Assembly: GCA_021792355.1 (NCBI GenBank)
Contig: JAJYUV010000047.1
Coordinates: 1 to 7,402 of the forward strand
Direction of reading: 5' to 3'
Length of the DNA: 7,402 bases
Origin: Thermoplasmata archaeon
GTDB taxonomy: Archaea > Thermoplasmatota > Thermoplasmata > Thermoplasmatales > GCA-001856825
The translations under genes were made by a program, and so were the position numbers. Below the pieces are notes generated by a model. The model worked only from the letters and a program-made list of their open reading frames with translations, made no database searches and had not been told where the DNA came from. Shown in pieces: positions 51 through 7,292 of this stretch (position 1 is its first letter; each line of letters opens with the position of its first letter).

Positions 51-125
51 GCTCCGATAGTGTAGTCCGGCCAAGCATACCGGCCTTTCAAGCCGGCGAC
101 CCGGGTCCAAATCCCGGTCGGAGCA
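51..125 (+). tRNA. tRNA-Glu (anticodon TTC), integration target
   Basis: A full cloverleaf can be drawn. The acceptor stem 51-57 pairs with 118-124 over seven base pairs, with discriminator A125. The D arm is 60-63 with 75-78, and the D loop carries GG at 69-70. The anticodon stem 80-84/92-96 encloses loop 85-91, with anticodon TTC at 87-89. The variable region is 4 nt, and the T stem 101-105 pairs fully with 113-117. No intron is present and no CCA is encoded. One oddity is that the T loop (106-112) reads TCCAAAT, so position 55, almost always U (pseudouridine), is C. The 3' end is the crossover site of the element. Confidence 0.95.
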
Positions 126-215: not shown

Positions 216-1259
216 TCAAAGTATCTTCCTGACGACGTCTCTCATGATTTCCATTATAGTCGTTTTTGTCAGCACTACAGATAACGCAAAGAACGCCGTG
301 AAGGTCATCATATGCTCCTGAACAGTACGTGCATGCTCGTCTTTTTTCTTACGCTTGGAGAGTTTTTCGCTGATCTCTCCCCTCTTTGGTCCTGAAATAA
401 AGAGCTGACTGATGATCCATGGAATGGAGCTGTTATCGAATTCCCACATGAAGGACGCAATCGAAAGGCCTGTGAGAAAATCCAGGTAATTGAAATCCGC
501 TATGACGCTAACGTGTTCTTTCCTCGCCTGGTAATATTCATCGGGTGAATCAATAAAAGGTGGGACCGTCCCGCCCATCTTAATAACCCTTGAAACACCC
601 TGAGGGAAATTAAGCGAGACAAATCTTTCAAGTGCTGTCAGTTCCTTATTGAACCTTGACACTGTAGTCCTGGAATCAGGCGAGAGGTCCTGGAAGGTAA
701 AGTCGGGATTCATGTTGATTTCAATTAGATCCCCTATATTTAGGCCATAAACCGATGCAAGGATGCTCCTGACAACAAAACCGTACTTGCCCTGGTTTAG
801 ATTGTAGACAAATCCCTCTTTGGCAAAAACGAACCTGATACAGTATCTTATTATAAAAGGAAAGGTCGGGTTAGAACCTCTTGCATTGAACTGCACTGCC
901 CTCATTATATCCTCCATCGCAACGATATCTGTGTCGGAAGCCATGAAAATGTAATTTCCCCCTTCGGCAGTTGGCAATGTTTGCGCAGATCCTTTAATCT
1001 GGTCGTAGGCCTCCCTGGGCATCTCAGAGAAAAGATCCATGGTCTTCCTGAATTCATAGGCCTCCTGCGGGCTCCCTCTGACAAGCGCCCGGACGTACCT
1101 GATTAGCCCCCTGATTATTTCATTCAAAGGGGGCGCTTCATTGAACTTGCACCCAACCAGTAGAACAGTTTCCTGCACTCGATACAGGTAATCGTACTCC
1201 CACGCATTCATCTTGACAGATATCCTCTGTAAGGGCATAGCTGTATAATACGCATACAT
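216..1259 (-). CDS. Protein with two tandem ribbon-helix-helix-like segments and an unknown C-terminal region
   Basis: The product is 347 aa from the ATG at 1259. The open frame extends to a GTG at 1289, but that codon lies almost on the promoter TATA boxes (1279-1285, 1293-1300), so a start at 1259 or at the ATG at 1238 is more likely. Residues 11-60 read as a strand (RISVKMN), a long helix, a turn and a second helix (NEIIRGLIRYVRAL), the layout of an RHH DNA-binding fold. Residues 102-145 repeat that layout (NYIFMAS, helix, turn, FIIRYCIRFVF). The last 200 residues are not recognised. They include a lysine-rich patch (KLSKRKKKDEHAR) followed by a hydrophobic stretch near the C-terminus that may be one membrane-associated helix. 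The gene is divergent from the copG-like/rep operon. A regulator or partition-type DNA-binding protein is likely; the RHH call is inferred from pattern, not from a database match. Confidence 0.75.
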   Translation of the reverse strand: MYAYYTAMPLQRISVKMNAWEYDYLYRVQETVLLVGCKFNEAPPLNEIIRGLIRYVRALVRGSPQEAYEFRKTMDLFSEMPREAYDQIKGSAQTLPTAEGGNYIFMASDTDIVAMEDIMRAVQFNARGSNPTFPFIIRYCIRFVFAKEGFVYNLNQGKYGFVVRSILASVYGLNIGDLIEINMNPDFTFQDLSPDSRTTVSRFNKELTALERFVSLNFPQGVSRVIKMGGTVPPFIDSPDEYYQARKEHVSVIADFNYLDFLTGLSIASFMWEFDNSSIPWIISQLFISGPKRGEISEKLSKRKKKDEHARTVQEHMMTFTAFFALSVVLTKTTIMEIMRDVVRKIL

Positions 1260-1276
1260 ACTTAAGCACTCCGGGG

Positions 1277-1317
1277 CGTATATATTCACAAGATTTAAAT
1301 AGGCACGCCGTATATGT
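1277..1317. promoter_or_regulatory. Divergent promoter and possible RHH operator
   Basis: The palindromic TATA-like ATTTAAAT at 1293-1300 is equidistant (about 37.5 bases from its centre) from the ATG at 1334 on the + strand and the ATG at 1259 on the - strand. That places each start about 11 bases after the expected initiation point. A direct repeat CGTATATAT/CGTATATGT (1277-1285, 1309-1317) has 32-bp spacing, about three helical turns, and an inverted GGCGT/ACGCC pair (1275-1279, 1305-1309) flanks the box. Such symmetric half-sites suit control by one of the two RHH proteins encoded on either side. The box and repeats are seen; the regulation is inferred. Confidence 0.55.
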
Positions 1318-1333: not shown

Positions 1334-1516
1334 ATGTATAGTGAAAGAGCTACAATATACATCCGGCTAAAGGATAAGATAGACCTAATGCGAGAAGCAA
1401 GAAGACGGAACATTTCTCTCTCTGCGCTCTTGGTAGAGTCTGCTAAGTACGCGCAGCAAAACAAAATCGACCTGGGCAAAGAAACAGAGACAGTGATGCG
1501 GAATGACACACAATGA
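1334..1516 (+). CDS. Small ribbon-helix-helix (CopG/Arc-like) DNA-binding protein
   Basis: The product is 60 aa. Residues 5-14 (RATIYIRLKD) form the expected strand, 15-24 a charged first helix (KIDLMREARR) and about 28-42 (SLSALLVESAKYAQQ) the second helix. The spacing is that of short RHH repressors such as CopG or Arc. The hydrophilic tail after residue 43 is probably disordered. It is the first gene of the replication operon, the usual place for a copy-number repressor of archaeal and bacterial plasmids. Its promoter is the TATA box at 1293-1300, and the leader is short, without a strong ribosome binding site. The gene end overlaps the next small frame by 14 bases. Fold assignment is by pattern; the copy-control role is inferred. 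Confidence 0.8.
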   Translation: MYSERATIYIRLKDKIDLMREARRRNISLSALLVESAKYAQQNKIDLGKETETVMRNDTQ

Positions 1517-1601
1517 GTTGATGCGAGAATTGAATCGAATCCTGGAAGAGATCTTCAGTAACGAAAAGGAAGACAATCCTAAACAGGAGAAAGTAAAATG
1601 A
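1503..1601 (+). CDS. Possible 32-aa leader or coupling peptide upstream of rep
   Basis: ATG at 1503 opens a 32-codon frame, highly charged and probably helical (ELMRELNRILEEIF near the N-terminus). It overlaps the end of the RHH gene by 14 bases, and its TGA overlaps the rep ATG in an ATGA arrangement. No gap remains between the RHH gene and rep when this frame is counted. No strong ribosome binding site is visible, so translation would depend on coupling. It could be a small regulator, a device coupling rep translation to upstream ribosomes, or a chance frame. Nothing in it identifies a family. Confidence 0.42.
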   Translation: MTHNELMRELNRILEEIFSNEKEDNPKQEKVK

Positions 1602-3976
1602 CAGAAAAATCCGAAGGGGAGGTCAGTCCCCCACAGACCACAAGCAAGGAAGATAACCAGAACGAGAATAAAAAGTTATCAATTTCTGAGGTAATCGAAA
1701 AGATGGATCCTCCCTTCAGGGATGTCTATAAAGATCCAGCAGAGATCCAGAATTATAGTCAGGATGGGTCCGTATTCTACCGTAAGAACTCTTCCGAAAT
1801 CAGGAATCTCGTAAAAAAGAACGCCCTTAAACACGGACTGGACCAAGCATTATTTGATGATTTCAAGAACGGTTCCGAGCTATGGAAAAACGAGTCTCAA
1901 TCAAAGGTCGTAGGAAAGTTTGAGATATTGTTTAAGGACCAGAGGACATTCAGCACGGGCCAAGGGATTCTCCCGGATGGTGTCCTGGCTTATACTGTAT
2001 CATTTCCGACAAAGATAGAAAAACAGGACACGAAACAACAACACAGCTATTTCATTACCGTTCAGTATAATTTCGAAATAACTAGCAAAGGCGAGATCTT
2101 CGCATGCTCGGAAGATGAGTTCAGAAAGAGAGATCTTTTCGTGAACATGCCAGAGGAGCCCATACAGTCAAGATGGAGTATGAGCTCCCGCAAAGACTTC
2201 CTGGACGGAATAGCCCACGTGGATCCCTGGACCGTCTTCAAGAAAATAAAAGAAAGATTTGACAGGTATATCGATTTCGGTGAGGTAAAAGGAGGATCGA
2301 CTCTATGCGCCGTTTATTCCATACTTACTTACGTTTTTGTATTATTCGACGCAATACCATACCTTAAGATCGAAGGTATAACAAATTCCGGTAAAACGAA
2401 GCTAGGAGAGGTATTTTTTCACATATGCTTCAATGCGACGATGGGAGTGGATCAAACCCCTTCGGTGATATACAGGACCATAGAAGCGGAAAGATCTACC
2501 ATGATAGTCGACGAAATAGAAGGCCTTGACAAGAATAGACAGACCGACAGGATGCTTGAGTTGTTTCCGATCTTCAATTCAGGCTACAAGTCAACCGGAT
2601 CCGTGATGCGAACTGAAGGAAACTCGTTAAACCGAAAGAGGGTCAATTATTCCACTTACAGCCCTAAGATATTCTGTGCAATCGATCCTCTCCTTGAAAC
2701 AATCAAGAATCGGTCTTACGTGATAATGCTGATTCGGACACTTGATGAGAAAAGGTCTAATCTGTCGCTGTCCAGCAAGGATCCTGCATGGCAGGAGATG
2801 CGGGATGATCTGTATGTTCTTGCATTGGAGTACTTTGAGGAAATCAAGGAAATCGCCGATTCAATGGAGATTACGAACGACCTGAAGCTCATAGGCAGAG
2901 ATTACGAGAAAGCCAAGCCCATCCTTGCAATTGCACGATTCATCGCCAAGTATAGCAACGGAGACAACTCAGTTCTGCAAGAAATTAAGGAATTCTTAGA
3001 GCAGCAGAAGAACGAAGACCAGGATCATGCAATGGGTTCCAAGGAAGCAACCGTAATACTTGAAATTGAGGCAATTATAAACGAAGTAAATCAGGCAAAG
3101 TTAGATCCATCTAATAGTGTTGATGACGCAGTCCAGATCACGATACCGGACCTCTCAGAGAGGGTGGCTAATGCCCTTGGCTATAACAGTGAGAAGCTCA
3201 ATAAGATGTCATTTTCCAGAAATATTTCAAATACGGTAAGACGGCTTGGCCTGATGAAAAATAGAAGGACCATAGGAAAAGGAATCACTGCATTCGACTG
3301 CACATCTGCTTTGATTAAGGAAGCAAAACAACGATACAAAATCGAAACAACTTTGTGCAACCCTTCTAACCCATCTAACCTAACTAACCCTTCTAACCCA
3401 TCTAACCTAACTAACCCTTCTAACCTAACTAACCTTAACGAATTCAATCTAACCCCTTCAGGGAACTCGGGTAATCCTGAATCCTCAGACGCAGGGGTTA
3501 GATGGGATACTTGGGTTAGATCAAAACCTACAGAGACAGAGAAGGATGATCACCCCGGGTATTTCGTCCGAGTATGCACAGAAAACCCTGGGATCCGCAA
3601 TCCATTCAAGAAGCTCAGGAAAGGAATCACTTTCAGGATCCACAAGGACGAGATCTCATCCTACAAGTTCTATGAGTTCTCCAGGGAGCCGGAGAAGGGC
3701 GAAGTTCTTGACAAGGAGGATGACATTCACTTTATAGAGGCCTTCAAGGCAGCTGAGATCCCAGACAGACAGAAAAGGGCGAAGCAACTCCTCATCCTGA
3801 TTCTTGCCGAGAAGCCAGACAAGAAACCAGGCAGCATCCAGAGAAGGCTGTCCGACCTTGACTCGACCCTGTCGACGGCAGAGGTAGTTTCTGCGCTCAA
3901 GGAGCTCATTGACATGGGCCTGATCCATAAATCGGAGGATGGCTTTTACATGCCAGGCAAGGAGGCCCTGAAATGA
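1598..3976 (+). CDS. Replication protein: AAA+ helicase-like ATPase with C-terminal winged helix
   Basis: The product is 792 aa. GGAG at 1586-1589 sits 8 bases before the ATG. Residues 1-35 are charged and disordered; about 100-165 are strand-rich and unassigned. The ATPase core follows: Walker A GITNSGKT (260-267, Lys266), Walker B TMIVDE (301-306), a strand ending in SPKIFCAIDP (355-364) that fits sensor 1, and Arg372 in a plausible arginine-finger or sensor-2 region. Residues about 510-580 look like a winged helix with an RRTIGKGI turn, resembling the region after the ATPase in DUF3631/VapE-type plasmid and phage helicases. Residues 588-612 are an Asn/Pro/Ser/Leu/Thr repeat encoded by a 9-bp DNA repeat. 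The last 65 residues form another winged helix. No primase or polymerase active site is evident, so host enzymes are probably recruited. It is the only replication gene in the element. Family assignment is moderate; ATPase identity is strong. Confidence 0.85.
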   Translation: MTEKSEGEVSPPQTTSKEDNQNENKKLSISEVIEKMDPPFRDVYKDPAEIQNYSQDGSVFYRKNSSEIRNLVKKNALKHGLDQALFDDFKNGSELWKNESQSKVVGKFEILFKDQRTFSTGQGILPDGVLAYTVSFPTKIEKQDTKQQHSYFITVQYNFEITSKGEIFACSEDEFRKRDLFVNMPEEPIQSRWSMSSRKDFLDGIAHVDPWTVFKKIKERFDRYIDFGEVKGGSTLCAVYSILTYVFVLFDAIPYLKIEGITNSGKTKLGEVFFHICFNATMGVDQTPSVIYRTIEAERSTMIVDEIEGLDKNRQTDRMLELFPIFNSGYKSTGSVMRTEGNSLNRKRVNYSTYSPKIFCAIDPLLETIKNRSYVIMLIRTLDEKRSNLSLSSKDPAWQEMRDDLYVLALEYFEEIKEIADSMEITNDLKLIGRDYEKAKPILAIARFIAKYSNGDNSVLQEIKEFLEQQKNEDQDHAMGSKEATVILEIEAIINEVNQAKLDPSNSVDDAVQITIPDLSERVANALGYNSEKLNKMSFSRNISNTVRRLGLMKNRRTIGKGITAFDCTSALIKEAKQRYKIETTLCNPSNPSNLTNPSNPSNLTNPSNLTNLNEFNLTPSGNSGNPESSDAGVRWDTWVRSKPTETEKDDHPGYFVRVCTENPGIRNPFKKLRKGITFRIHKDEISSYKFYEFSREPEKGEVLDKEDDIHFIEAFKAAEIPDRQKRAKQLLILILAEKPDKKPGSIQRRLSDLDSTLSTAEVVSALKELIDMGLIHKSEDGFYMPGKEALK
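3362..3433 (+). repeat. Eight tandem 9-bp units (CTAAC-ended) inside rep
   Basis: Eight contiguous 9-mers each end in CTAAC. Two perfect 27-bp copies (3362-3388, 3389-3415) are followed by a third lacking its middle unit (3416-3433). They encode the NPSN/LTN linker of the replication protein. Every Asn uses AAC, every Ser TCT, every Thr ACT and every Leu CTA, so identity extends to silent positions. Either recent unit duplication or selection on the DNA explains this. The same word recurs inverted downstream (3496-3502, 3514-3520), which favours an iteron-like origin or Rep-binding array. Confidence 0.85.
3447..3520. repeat. Inverted copies of the TCTAACC word (candidate origin half)
   Basis: ATCTAACCCCT (3447-3457) is matched by its exact reverse complement at 3493-3503, making an 11-bp inverted repeat with a 35-base spacer. 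A further GGGTTAGAT follows at 3513-3521, and GGTTAGATGGG (3496-3506) is also the exact complement of CCCATCTAACC in the tandem array (3370-3380, 3397-3407). In this orientation the word encodes GVRW and WVRS, unrelated to the NPSN linker, so the match is not a protein-repeat effect. Confidence 0.7.
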
Positions 3977-5777: not shown

Positions 5778-5926
5778 TTCCTCACCTCCTTTCCTTTGTT
5801 TGAATAAAGGAACGTAACTGCAGCTGAGAGAATTCGATGTTCTCATGTTCTCCTTGAATGATTCAAAAGGATCCATTTCTTTCCCTCTATATATGAACCA
5901 TGCAGGCGCATAGGAAGGTAGGAGAA

Positions 5927-7234
5927 TCATTCCTTCTCGACCCTCTTTCTAATCTCATCGAGCTTGCCGTCCTTCTCGAGCTTGAGAAGCAACGACGCCA
6001 GAAGATCAAGCCTTGATTCCTCGGGTAGATTATCCAGGGCCAATTTAATATCCTGACCAAACAGAGAGCTCTCTCTAATGGCATCCATGACCTTTATCCT
6101 GTGTTCCTCAGCCTTCATGAAGTCTTCAGGCCTGAGGGGCGTCCCACAATTGGAACAGAATCTTGCGCCTCCCGTGTTTACGGTATGGCATCTCTGACAT
6201 CTTCTTGCTGTCTTCGAGACAGGCTTCTTCAGCTCATCGTCGGTTATCGGTATATTGCTTGCCTTCAGGATCGCTATAATCTGGCCTTTGGAATCAAGAT
6301 GGGTGTAGTTATCAGCCATCTTATTGGAGCTCCAGCCCATCTGCCTGGTAAATACCTGGATAGGGATGTCGACCGCCATCCTGGTGGCCGCGCTGTGCCT
6401 GAAAAGGTGAGGAGAGATCTGCTTGTCTATGCCGGATCTCTTCTTGACCTTCCCGATCATAGCCCTGAGGTCATCATATGTCAGGTTGGATCCATGTCTC
6501 TCCTTCCCTATTCCAACAAACAGAAAACCCTTCTCGCTGAAGCTGTCTTTCAGGAAGTCCTTCAGGAAGTCCACGTATTGAGGGACCAGAACGACTGAAT
6601 CTCCAGTTACTACTACAGTACGCTGCCTGTAGTTCTTGGATCCTTCGCTTATATTCAGCGTAGCATAAAGACCATCCTGGGATAACTGGAAGTCCTTGAC
6701 CTTAAGACTTAGGAGCTCCGAGGCCCTTATCCCGCTATCCCAGAGAAGGGAAAGAATGGCTTTATCCCTGGAGTTTTTACAGGCCTTCAATAATGATTGC
6801 AGCTCCTCATAGGTTATCATCTGATCGGGCCGCTTGTATCTTGAACCGATCTTCTCTGCATGAATGTCGTTCCAGAACCTATCCAGGACCCCATCATTCG
6901 TGTACTTGACAAACTTCTTAAGTGTCTTCTTGAAATCTGAAATGGTGGACGGGCTGTATTTTGTATGCCTGGTAGTTGTCCTTTCCCGGAGATCTGAAAT
7001 GCATTTTATGACGTCCTCCCTGGAAGGCCTTAAGATCTTTGGGCCGAGTATCCCGGCAAGAATCAGGAGCCGCTCAAAATAGAAGTATTCACGGTGTTTC
7101 TTGATTCCGTTTCCTTCTACCAGGACAGAGACGAACTCGAATATTTTATCCTTGACACTTTCCGGCAGATCACTGTTCCTGAGCCTCTGCTTGACGCTTG
7201 TAACGTTTCGTTCGACGTCGTAAACCGGATTCAT
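5927..7234 (-). CDS. int: Tyrosine-family site-specific integrase with C-terminal zinc ribbon
   Basis: The product is 435 aa. An N-terminal SAM-like core-binding domain (about 15-125) precedes the catalytic domain, which shows Arg170 in DSGIRASELL, a probable hairpin Lys200, His276-X2-Arg279 (HLFRH), Trp301 (MGWSS) in the third box and the nucleophile Tyr310 (MADNYTHL). After it comes a zinc ribbon, Cys346-X2-Cys349-X10-Cys360-X2-Cys363, and a C-terminal helical, charged tail (about 372-435). The chemistry is strand cleavage and exchange at the 17-bp tRNA-Glu core, for integration and probably excision. All catalytic residues are present, so it should be active. The gene is intact and reads away from attR, with its start 42 bases from the core. 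The fused zinc ribbon is an added DNA- or protein-binding module and is not part of the minimal XerA/XerC-type enzyme. Confidence 0.95.
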   Translation of the reverse strand: MNPVYDVERNVTSVKQRLRNSDLPESVKDKIFEFVSVLVEGNGIKKHREYFYFERLLILAGILGPKILRPSREDVIKCISDLRERTTTRHTKYSPSTISDFKKTLKKFVKYTNDGVLDRFWNDIHAEKIGSRYKRPDQMITYEELQSLLKACKNSRDKAILSLLWDSGIRASELLSLKVKDFQLSQDGLYATLNISEGSKNYRQRTVVVTGDSVVLVPQYVDFLKDFLKDSFSEKGFLFVGIGKERHGSNLTYDDLRAMIGKVKKRSGIDKQISPHLFRHSAATRMAVDIPIQVFTRQMGWSSNKMADNYTHLDSKGQIIAILKASNIPITDDELKKPVSKTARRCQRCHTVNTGGARFCSNCGTPLRPEDFMKAEEHRIKVMDAIRESSLFGQDIKLALDNLPEESRLDLLASLLLKLEKDGKLDEIRKRVEKE

Positions 7235-7271: not shown

Positions 7272-7277
7272 TTATAA
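7272..7277 (-). promoter_or_regulatory. TATA-like box of int overlapping attR
   Basis: On the - strand GATTATAACC contains a TATA-like box centred near 7274.5, about 40 bases before the integrase ATG (7234), predicting initiation near 7249 and a short leader. Its upstream half lies in the att core, so the region where TFB would bind is tRNA-derived sequence. Bound integrase would cover the promoter, giving a simple autoregulation. The box is seen; its use is inferred. Confidence 0.45.
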
Positions 7278-7292
7278 TCCCGGTCGGAGCAT
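7276..7292 (+). repeat. attR core (17 bp)
   Basis: This is an exact second copy of the tRNA-Glu 3' end, without the rest of the tRNA. It lies 42 bases upstream of the integrase start codon. Sequence to its right (7293-7402) should be the original chromosomal DNA that followed the tRNA gene. Bases 7272-7277 also form the TATA-like box that best fits the integrase promoter, so attachment site and promoter overlap. Confidence 0.9.

Follow-up and report, generated by a model that had tools for sequence, protein, structure and literature searches.

In phage lambda, the iterons bound by the initiator lie within the initiator gene and the origin maps inside O, as described in the accessible parts of two reports (PMC5043065, PMC3985674). 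For the plasmid protein pSK41 Rep, the available portion of PMC5703833 describes a winged helix that binds four Rep boxes in the centre of rep, an origin-encoded stretch that is a deletable linker, and a separate C-terminal domain. The archaeal plasmid pRN1, whose Rep combines a helicase with a winged helix, has a stem-loop origin whose structure, not its sequence, is kept in relatives, according to the sections of PMC4234260 at hand. A Thermoplasmata plasmid paper of 2011 dealt, in its accessible part, only with plasmids of the Orc1/Cdc6 type (PMC3177234). It has long been asked how an initiator and its origin can exchange partners and survive the transition. We analysed a stretch of 7,402 nucleotides from a Thermoplasmata archaeon (the window), in which the start signal for replication seems to be part of the rep gene itself.

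The window contains an integrated element inserted at a tRNA-Glu(TTC) gene (51-125, plus strand). Its ends are marked by two 17-bp att copies of repeat family D7, one at 110-126 in the 3' end of the tRNA gene and the other at 7276-7292; they lie 7166 bp apart, in agreement with the 7166-bp circle proposed in a first-pass annotation of this DNA. The second copy is adjoined by a gene for a tyrosine integrase with a zinc ribbon (5927-7234, minus strand; Pfam PF00589, E = 1.4e-26, and PF13240). At the Rfam gathering score, the tRNA was the sole family matching the window. Pfam searches of seven window ORFs matched the integrase and zinc ribbon in one ORF and a sub-threshold DUF in Rep, and detected no Orc1/Cdc6 initiator on the element at E <= 0.1. 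ORF 216-1289 (minus strand, 357 residues), in which a possible hydrophobic stretch near the C-terminus was seen by eye, had neither a Pfam nor a PHROG match and is putative cargo. Apart from the array described below, the tandem repeats of the window reach just 2.0 copies (5837-5852, period 8) and 2.3 copies (6545-6572, period 12, within the integrase gene), and no second comparable array was listed. GC skew, which the annotation had suggested as a guide to the origin, tracks gene orientation in our reading and was no help for this purpose.

The largest gene of the window (1598-3976, plus strand) encodes Rep, an AAA+ replication protein of 792 residues. Its structure model, built on a 53-row alignment (mean pLDDT 75.0), supersedes an 18-row model (pLDDT 57.5). 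The AAA+ part (residues 158-480; 2069-3037) matches the folds of MCM, SF3 and SCCmec Cch helicases. It is followed by a domain of predicted E-H-H-E-E-H order (residues 512-579; 3131-3334; block pLDDT 85-91), which we propose as the array reader and call winged helix wH1, a name that is our reading of the structure model. From residue 585 to about 712, the model has low confidence; this linker is encoded by the array and leads into a C-terminal helical domain (residues 706-786; 3713-3955) that is swapped among family members. By predicted fold, Rep thus pairs an SF3/MCM-like AAA+ helicase with a winged helix, and fold and context together suggest that it is a replication protein or initiator.

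The Rep family is undescribed. The single Pfam match of the window Rep, DUF4423, was below cut-off, and among 53 members five Pfam families matched weakly (best E 0.0023), with no RepA_N domain at E <= 0.01 and no match to the phage replication protein O profile. No PHROG matched the window Rep, P0005, P0014 or P0053, and no PDB sequence matched a profile of the 53 members. In a literature search largely confined to journals outside subscription, neither this Rep family nor an archaeal plasmid origin inside rep was recognised.

Protein searches returned 59 Rep homologue ids (19 first and 40 further). Few of them carry a name: P0051 and P0054 are from Thermoplasmata, P0053 is from Micrarchaeaceae and the distant P0028 from Dehalobacter, and the close relatives with names are archaeal, mostly Thermoplasmata. 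The window Rep as a single-protein query found no relative in the viral or genome contig sets, and alignment queries A1, A2 and A3 found nothing in the viral contig set; alignment query A4 returned one distant viral contig (L024), which was used in the sliding-window survey only. Whole-genome searches gave matches, mostly distant, in 14 of 400 genomes from the class, in 10 of 117 from the order and in 1 of 8 from the order that includes G075. Plasmid and phage records gave distant helicase matches only, and none when P0014 was the query. The loci read as DNA include three in named Thermoplasmata genomes, the others being in genomes of the same class, and arrays were read as DNA in six (window, L002, L003, L010, L011 and L013). 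The large alignment excludes P0018, P0019, P0027, P0028 and P0059, and P0026 and P0039, whose sequences stop before the linker, were omitted from counts.

Several relatives were unusual in themselves. A broken Rep relative (L004), a decayed copy near a contig end, lies around 7974-8876 of L001 and is 94% identical to P0007 over 301 residues. In L021, a 596-residue frame (1492-3279) begins with 90 residues that are 74% identical to the P0010 N-terminus and then turns into another protein, in which a P-loop-like motif was recognised by eye, so the N-terminal part of Rep occurs on other proteins. P0019, a distant helicase relative, has a C-terminal GNIGNIGNIG plus NDSNDSND repeat, possibly another array in a rep gene.

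The first-pass annotation had reported six forward and two inverted copies of TCTAACC within 156 bp of rep, and we found all eight between 3365 and 3520 (plus strand at 3365, 3374, 3392, 3401, 3419 and 3448; inverted at 3496 and 3514). One more TCTAACC, the ninth of the window, lies on the minus strand at 869-875, inside a different ORF. Dinucleotide shuffles of the whole window contained a mean of 0.97 copies and a maximum of 5, and none of 200 reached nine. The core of the word, CTAACC, has nine forward and two inverted copies; eight of the forward ones run consecutively from 3366 to 3429 with an exact 9-bp period and the ninth is at 3449, and no 250-nt stretch of the window outside the array holds more than one copy. 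The direct array (3365-3454, plus strand), with its nine CTAACC, is separated by a 41-bp spacer (3455-3495) from the inverted copies (3496-3520, minus strand), which read GGTTAGA on the plus strand at 3496-3502 and 3514-3520. The ninth direct copy and both inverted copies are read in frames differing from that of the first eight, so that one word is encoded three ways; the annotation had noted that the inverted copies encode unrelated residues. At the inverted copies, arms of 26 nt show 81% complementarity to stretches of the direct array, and by eye all five mismatches fall between the two inverted words and none within them. Runs of GGGTTAG had suggested a minus-strand G-quadruplex, an idea that we rejected; by eye, such G runs are lacking in L002 and L011, whose arrays are of the ATTAAC type.

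All six arrays read as DNA contain direct and inverted copies of their own word, and the word itself differs among them: CTAACC in the window, CTAACC in a CCTAACC context in L003, ATTAAC in L002, ATTAAC plus TTTAAC in L011, CTACC in L010 and ACTAAY in L013. Direct and inverted copies number 9 and 2 in the window, 10 (plus one distant) and 3 in L003, 6 and 2 in L002, 4 and 2 in L010, 5 and 7 in L011, and 2 and 3 in L013. The encoded linker residues vary freely between homologues (NPS, HLP, TNQ, INL, HQS, STP). Comparison of homologues had been set in advance as a check, and in it the linker residues change while a repeated word and its inverted copies persist. The annotation's claim that the word is conserved as DNA therefore needs revision: what is kept is a repeated word with its own inverted copies, and the word changes between relatives in both orientations together. 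Drift in copy number, named beforehand as evidence for a minisatellite, does occur, but the inverted copies and their partner-specific match are unlike a drifting minisatellite.

Word clustering was densest at the array in all six loci, weakly so in L028. In the sliding-window survey, the densest segments for inverted words reached 38 in the window, 40 in L002, 35 in L003, 38 in L011 and 20 in L010, against 5-17 in distant relatives and other fetched records; the exception, L027 (23), is a record whose GC content is 0.71 and whose background is high. Distant helicase relatives had no comparable array in the stretches fetched. In L013 the array scored 15 and a segment elsewhere scored 20, and the word is hardly clustered (three copies at the array versus two elsewhere). 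This locus is an 806-residue gene (L028:8088-10508, minus strand) of chimeric make-up: its start is similar to P0008 residues 1-105 and its end to P0008 from residue 563 onward, with another helicase, D5-type in our reading, in the middle. A shortened array is retained there though wH1 and the helicase were replaced. We take L013 to be the product of an exchange at the iteron array, and it counts against wH1 being always needed.

We then asked how far the DNA word exceeds what the protein requires. Inverted 7-mer pairs at the array numbered 40 in the window, 40 in L002, 35 in L003, 22 in L010, 45 in L011 and 15 in L013, compared with maxima elsewhere in the same ORF of 10, 10, 7, 9, 10 and 25, respectively; the array thus beats the rest of its ORF in five of six cases, and L013 fails. 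Among 2000 synonymous shuffles of each array, the observed value was reached 0 times for the window, L002, L011 and L013, 4 times for L003 and twice for L010. In a cross test, for which the split points were picked by eye after the sequences were seen, each direct part fitted its own inverted part best in all six rows (one tie) and five of six columns were best with their own partner, one of these with a three-way tie; the exception was L011, whose word is common to L002. The match between own direct and inverted parts exceeded that of every other segment of the same ORF in 6/6, narrowly for L011 (13 versus 12), and this match was attained by 10 of 300 codon shuffles of L011 and by 1 of 300 of L010.

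We also compared the proteins alone. When partners were permuted among 17 proteins, P0015 having been dropped for a direct segment of fewer than 12 residues, the observed sum was reached in 0 of 20000 permutations. Individual shuffles failed for P0014 (193 of 500), P0016 (417 of 500) and P0017 (197 of 500) and were weak for P0004 (35 of 500) and P0002 (25 of 500). We read the three failures as inverted copies outside the cut segment, and all three proteins rank first in a test that uses no split. This split-free test placed the array segment first in 10 of 22 first-set proteins (0.9 expected) and in 27 of 35 found later (1.5 expected). Twelve of the 22 first-set proteins were not ranked first, and the window Rep ranks 4 of 27, so the case for the window rests on its DNA. 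Together, these sequence comparisons come close to showing that the word is maintained as DNA in its own right, in both orientations.

Variation in the word gave an opportunity to identify its probable reader. In five homologues (P0001, P0002, P0010, P0011 and P0012), His replaces Asn at the Asn codon of the word, implying CTCA instead of CTAA, a class that we assigned from linker residues and not from the DNA of these five; among the non-CTCA members, P0025 and P0058 have no clear word. A single column, residue 562, has no residue common to the two classes, both among 571 columns of 22 sequences and among 540 columns of 57 sequences. In the structure model, this residue (Gly in the window; codon 3281-3283) forms the turn between the two wing strands. 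The CTCA members carry Arg (two) or His (three), and the other 52 have Asn (48), Gly (3) or a gap (1). Swapping labels within the close pairs window/P0001 (82%) and P0003/P0002 (88%) left no separating column, and among 2000 random sets of five members one gave such a column, as did 7 of 1500 clade-like sets. On a tree of the AAA+ part, the CTCA label requires at least three gains or losses by well supported branches, so the difference is not a single inherited change. The one gap belongs to L010; its word, suggestively, likewise lacks an A (TCTACC versus TCTAACC).

Contacts of Asn to adenine, and of Arg or His to the guanine paired with C, are of well-known types. The wing idea came from the same first sequences as the first test. 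The 35 later homologues contained no counterexample to the wing rule and no new CTCA member, so the correlation is confirmed out of sample on one side only. The second base of the word (ATC versus ACC) also follows wing residues 559-560; here 14 of 365 columns separate the classes, and the signal is therefore confounded by kinship. The C-terminal domain behaves differently. P0005 and P0006 have the same word, with wH1 77% identical and C-terminal similarity undetectable; P0007 and P0013 share a word with wH1 at 80% and C-termini at 43%; and P0008 and P0013 differ in word with C-terminal domains at 70%. The C-terminal domain does not track the word and, by this evidence, is not the reader. The covariation indicates that array word and putative DNA-reading loop changed together in relatives.

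We consider it likely that the array is a set of iterons for the Rep of the same gene, most likely the replication origin of the element, and several other explanations were weighed against this one. One of them, which we regard as unlikely, is a stem-loop origin as in pRN1, with the arrays as hairpin or cruciform arms recognised by shape and the repeats a by-product. All six arrays do fold better than their dinucleotide shuffles (z -3.7 to -6.1 as RNA, -2.8 to -5.8 as DNA), and the stems of L010 (16 pairs) and L013 (14 pairs) are unbroken. However, any inverted repeats fold, so these z-scores do not discriminate. Direct copies are in clear surplus in the window (9 versus 2) and in L003 (10 versus 3), though not in L011 and L013; the five arm mismatches of the window spare its inverted words; and reading by shape leaves the tracking of base by wing residue without account. 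Surplus direct copies and the wing correlation favour reading of sequence over shape, and iteron and stem-loop roles could both hold. The same RNA folding would suit an mRNA hairpin affecting translation or stability of rep, but the array lies 1.8 kb into the gene, Rfam at its gathering score matched nothing in the window except the tRNA, and neither the surplus copies nor the wing correlation is accounted for, making this a very improbable explanation.

A further possibility, which we hold to be somewhat less probable still than the stem-loop origin, is that replication starts at another place and that these are Rep sites for control: Rep could regulate its own gene, limit copy number by handcuffing or block transcription within rep. 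A second role in control is common for iterons, the array is within the transcription unit and Rep would bind there. Against this, the array is 1.8 kb from the start of rep, no other array of similar copy number was listed in the window, and the word is densest at this place in the six loci, though weakly in L028. The least credible proposal, already largely refuted and retaining almost no probability, is a neutral minisatellite or a protein-level repeat that makes a flexible Asn-rich linker. A period that is a multiple of three and the differing copy numbers would fit it; the synonymous shuffles, the inverted copies in other frames, the partner-specific matching and the free change of linker residues do not. 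The iteron origin itself has features that speak against it: its 9-bp period lacks helical phasing, and the array is scarcely richer in AT than its gene (0.53-0.63 versus 0.55).

Rep very probably binds the array, as judged from the sequence comparisons, and origin activity is what we infer from this. Of the annotation's suggestion of Rep-binding iterons or an origin inside rep, the iteron reading is thus supported by the homologue tests, and the origin remains the conjectural part. That wH1, encoded just upstream, reads the word, with the wing tip probably contacting its variable base, is well supported by covariation. Rep would gather on both the long forward array and the opposed one, placing the AAA+ helicase, and the AAA+ part, possibly as two facing rings, would open the DNA between or beside the arrays. 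By analogy with pSK41 Rep, the array-encoded linker may do no more than keep wH1 and the C-terminal domain apart. Put in full, and only tentatively, the element may be a one-gene archaeal replicon with initiator, helicase and two opposed iteron arrays in the linker that load facing rings for bidirectional replication. The wing tip would read one base, A going with Asn or Gly and C with Arg or His; one residue and a few synchronised base changes would repeatedly have given a new origin specificity, and wing and array would travel as one cassette. With reader and target separated by a few dozen bases of the same gene, dozens of natural pairs and one wing residue that apparently sets one base, a change of partners between initiator and origin becomes directly testable. 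The array would also supply an origin for an undescribed replication protein family found mostly in Thermoplasmata, and would support the independent rise of origin-carrying initiators in phages, Gram-positive plasmids and archaeal elements.

Two plasmids of related archaea, pPO1 (7.6 kb) and pTA1 of Thermoplasmatales, have an Orc1/Cdc6 initiator and a predicted intergenic, repeat-rich origin in the accessible part of PMC3177234, whereas the seven ORFs scanned in the window gave no Orc1/Cdc6 match. ORF904 of the Sulfolobus plasmid pRN1 is likewise an archaeal plasmid Rep with helicase and winged helix; its stem-loop origin is downstream of the gene and is said, in the available sections of PMC4234260, to lack iterons, whereas the window array is inside rep. 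The proteins of PMC13107129 are, from the part available, of the rolling-circle type and unrelated to the window Rep. The helicase part of Rep is weakly similar to a protein of plasmid pXZ1 (28.9% over 237 residues). We take pXZ1 to be a pRN-like plasmid; its record (L025) has 110 direct 7-mer pairs in 250 nt at about 1201-1475, between genes 362-598 and 1755-1913.

In layout, the window Rep resembles initiators outside the archaea. Lambda O and its origin resemble the window in having repeated sites within the initiator coding sequence, and the lambda iterons are placed where the DNA-binding N-terminal part of O gives way to its C-terminal part. Lambda has four 19-bp iterons, each an inverted repeat, beside an A+T-rich stretch, whereas the window has many 9-bp units and a separate opposed array. 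To our knowledge, lambda O carries no helicase; in the window Rep, initiator and AAA+ helicase are one protein. The layout of pSK41 Rep, with winged helix, array-encoded linker and C-terminal domain, is that of the window Rep. It differs in being bacterial, 319 residues long, with an N-terminal winged helix and a C-terminal domain that contacts primase, and the window Rep family is without a RepA_N match. Lambda O and pSK41 Rep stand for a class defined by layout and not by common descent, to which the window Rep would belong. Because lambda and pSK41 already provide origins within initiator genes, we rate as new the protein family, the opposed arrays, the visible recognition rule and, as far as seen, the archaeal setting.
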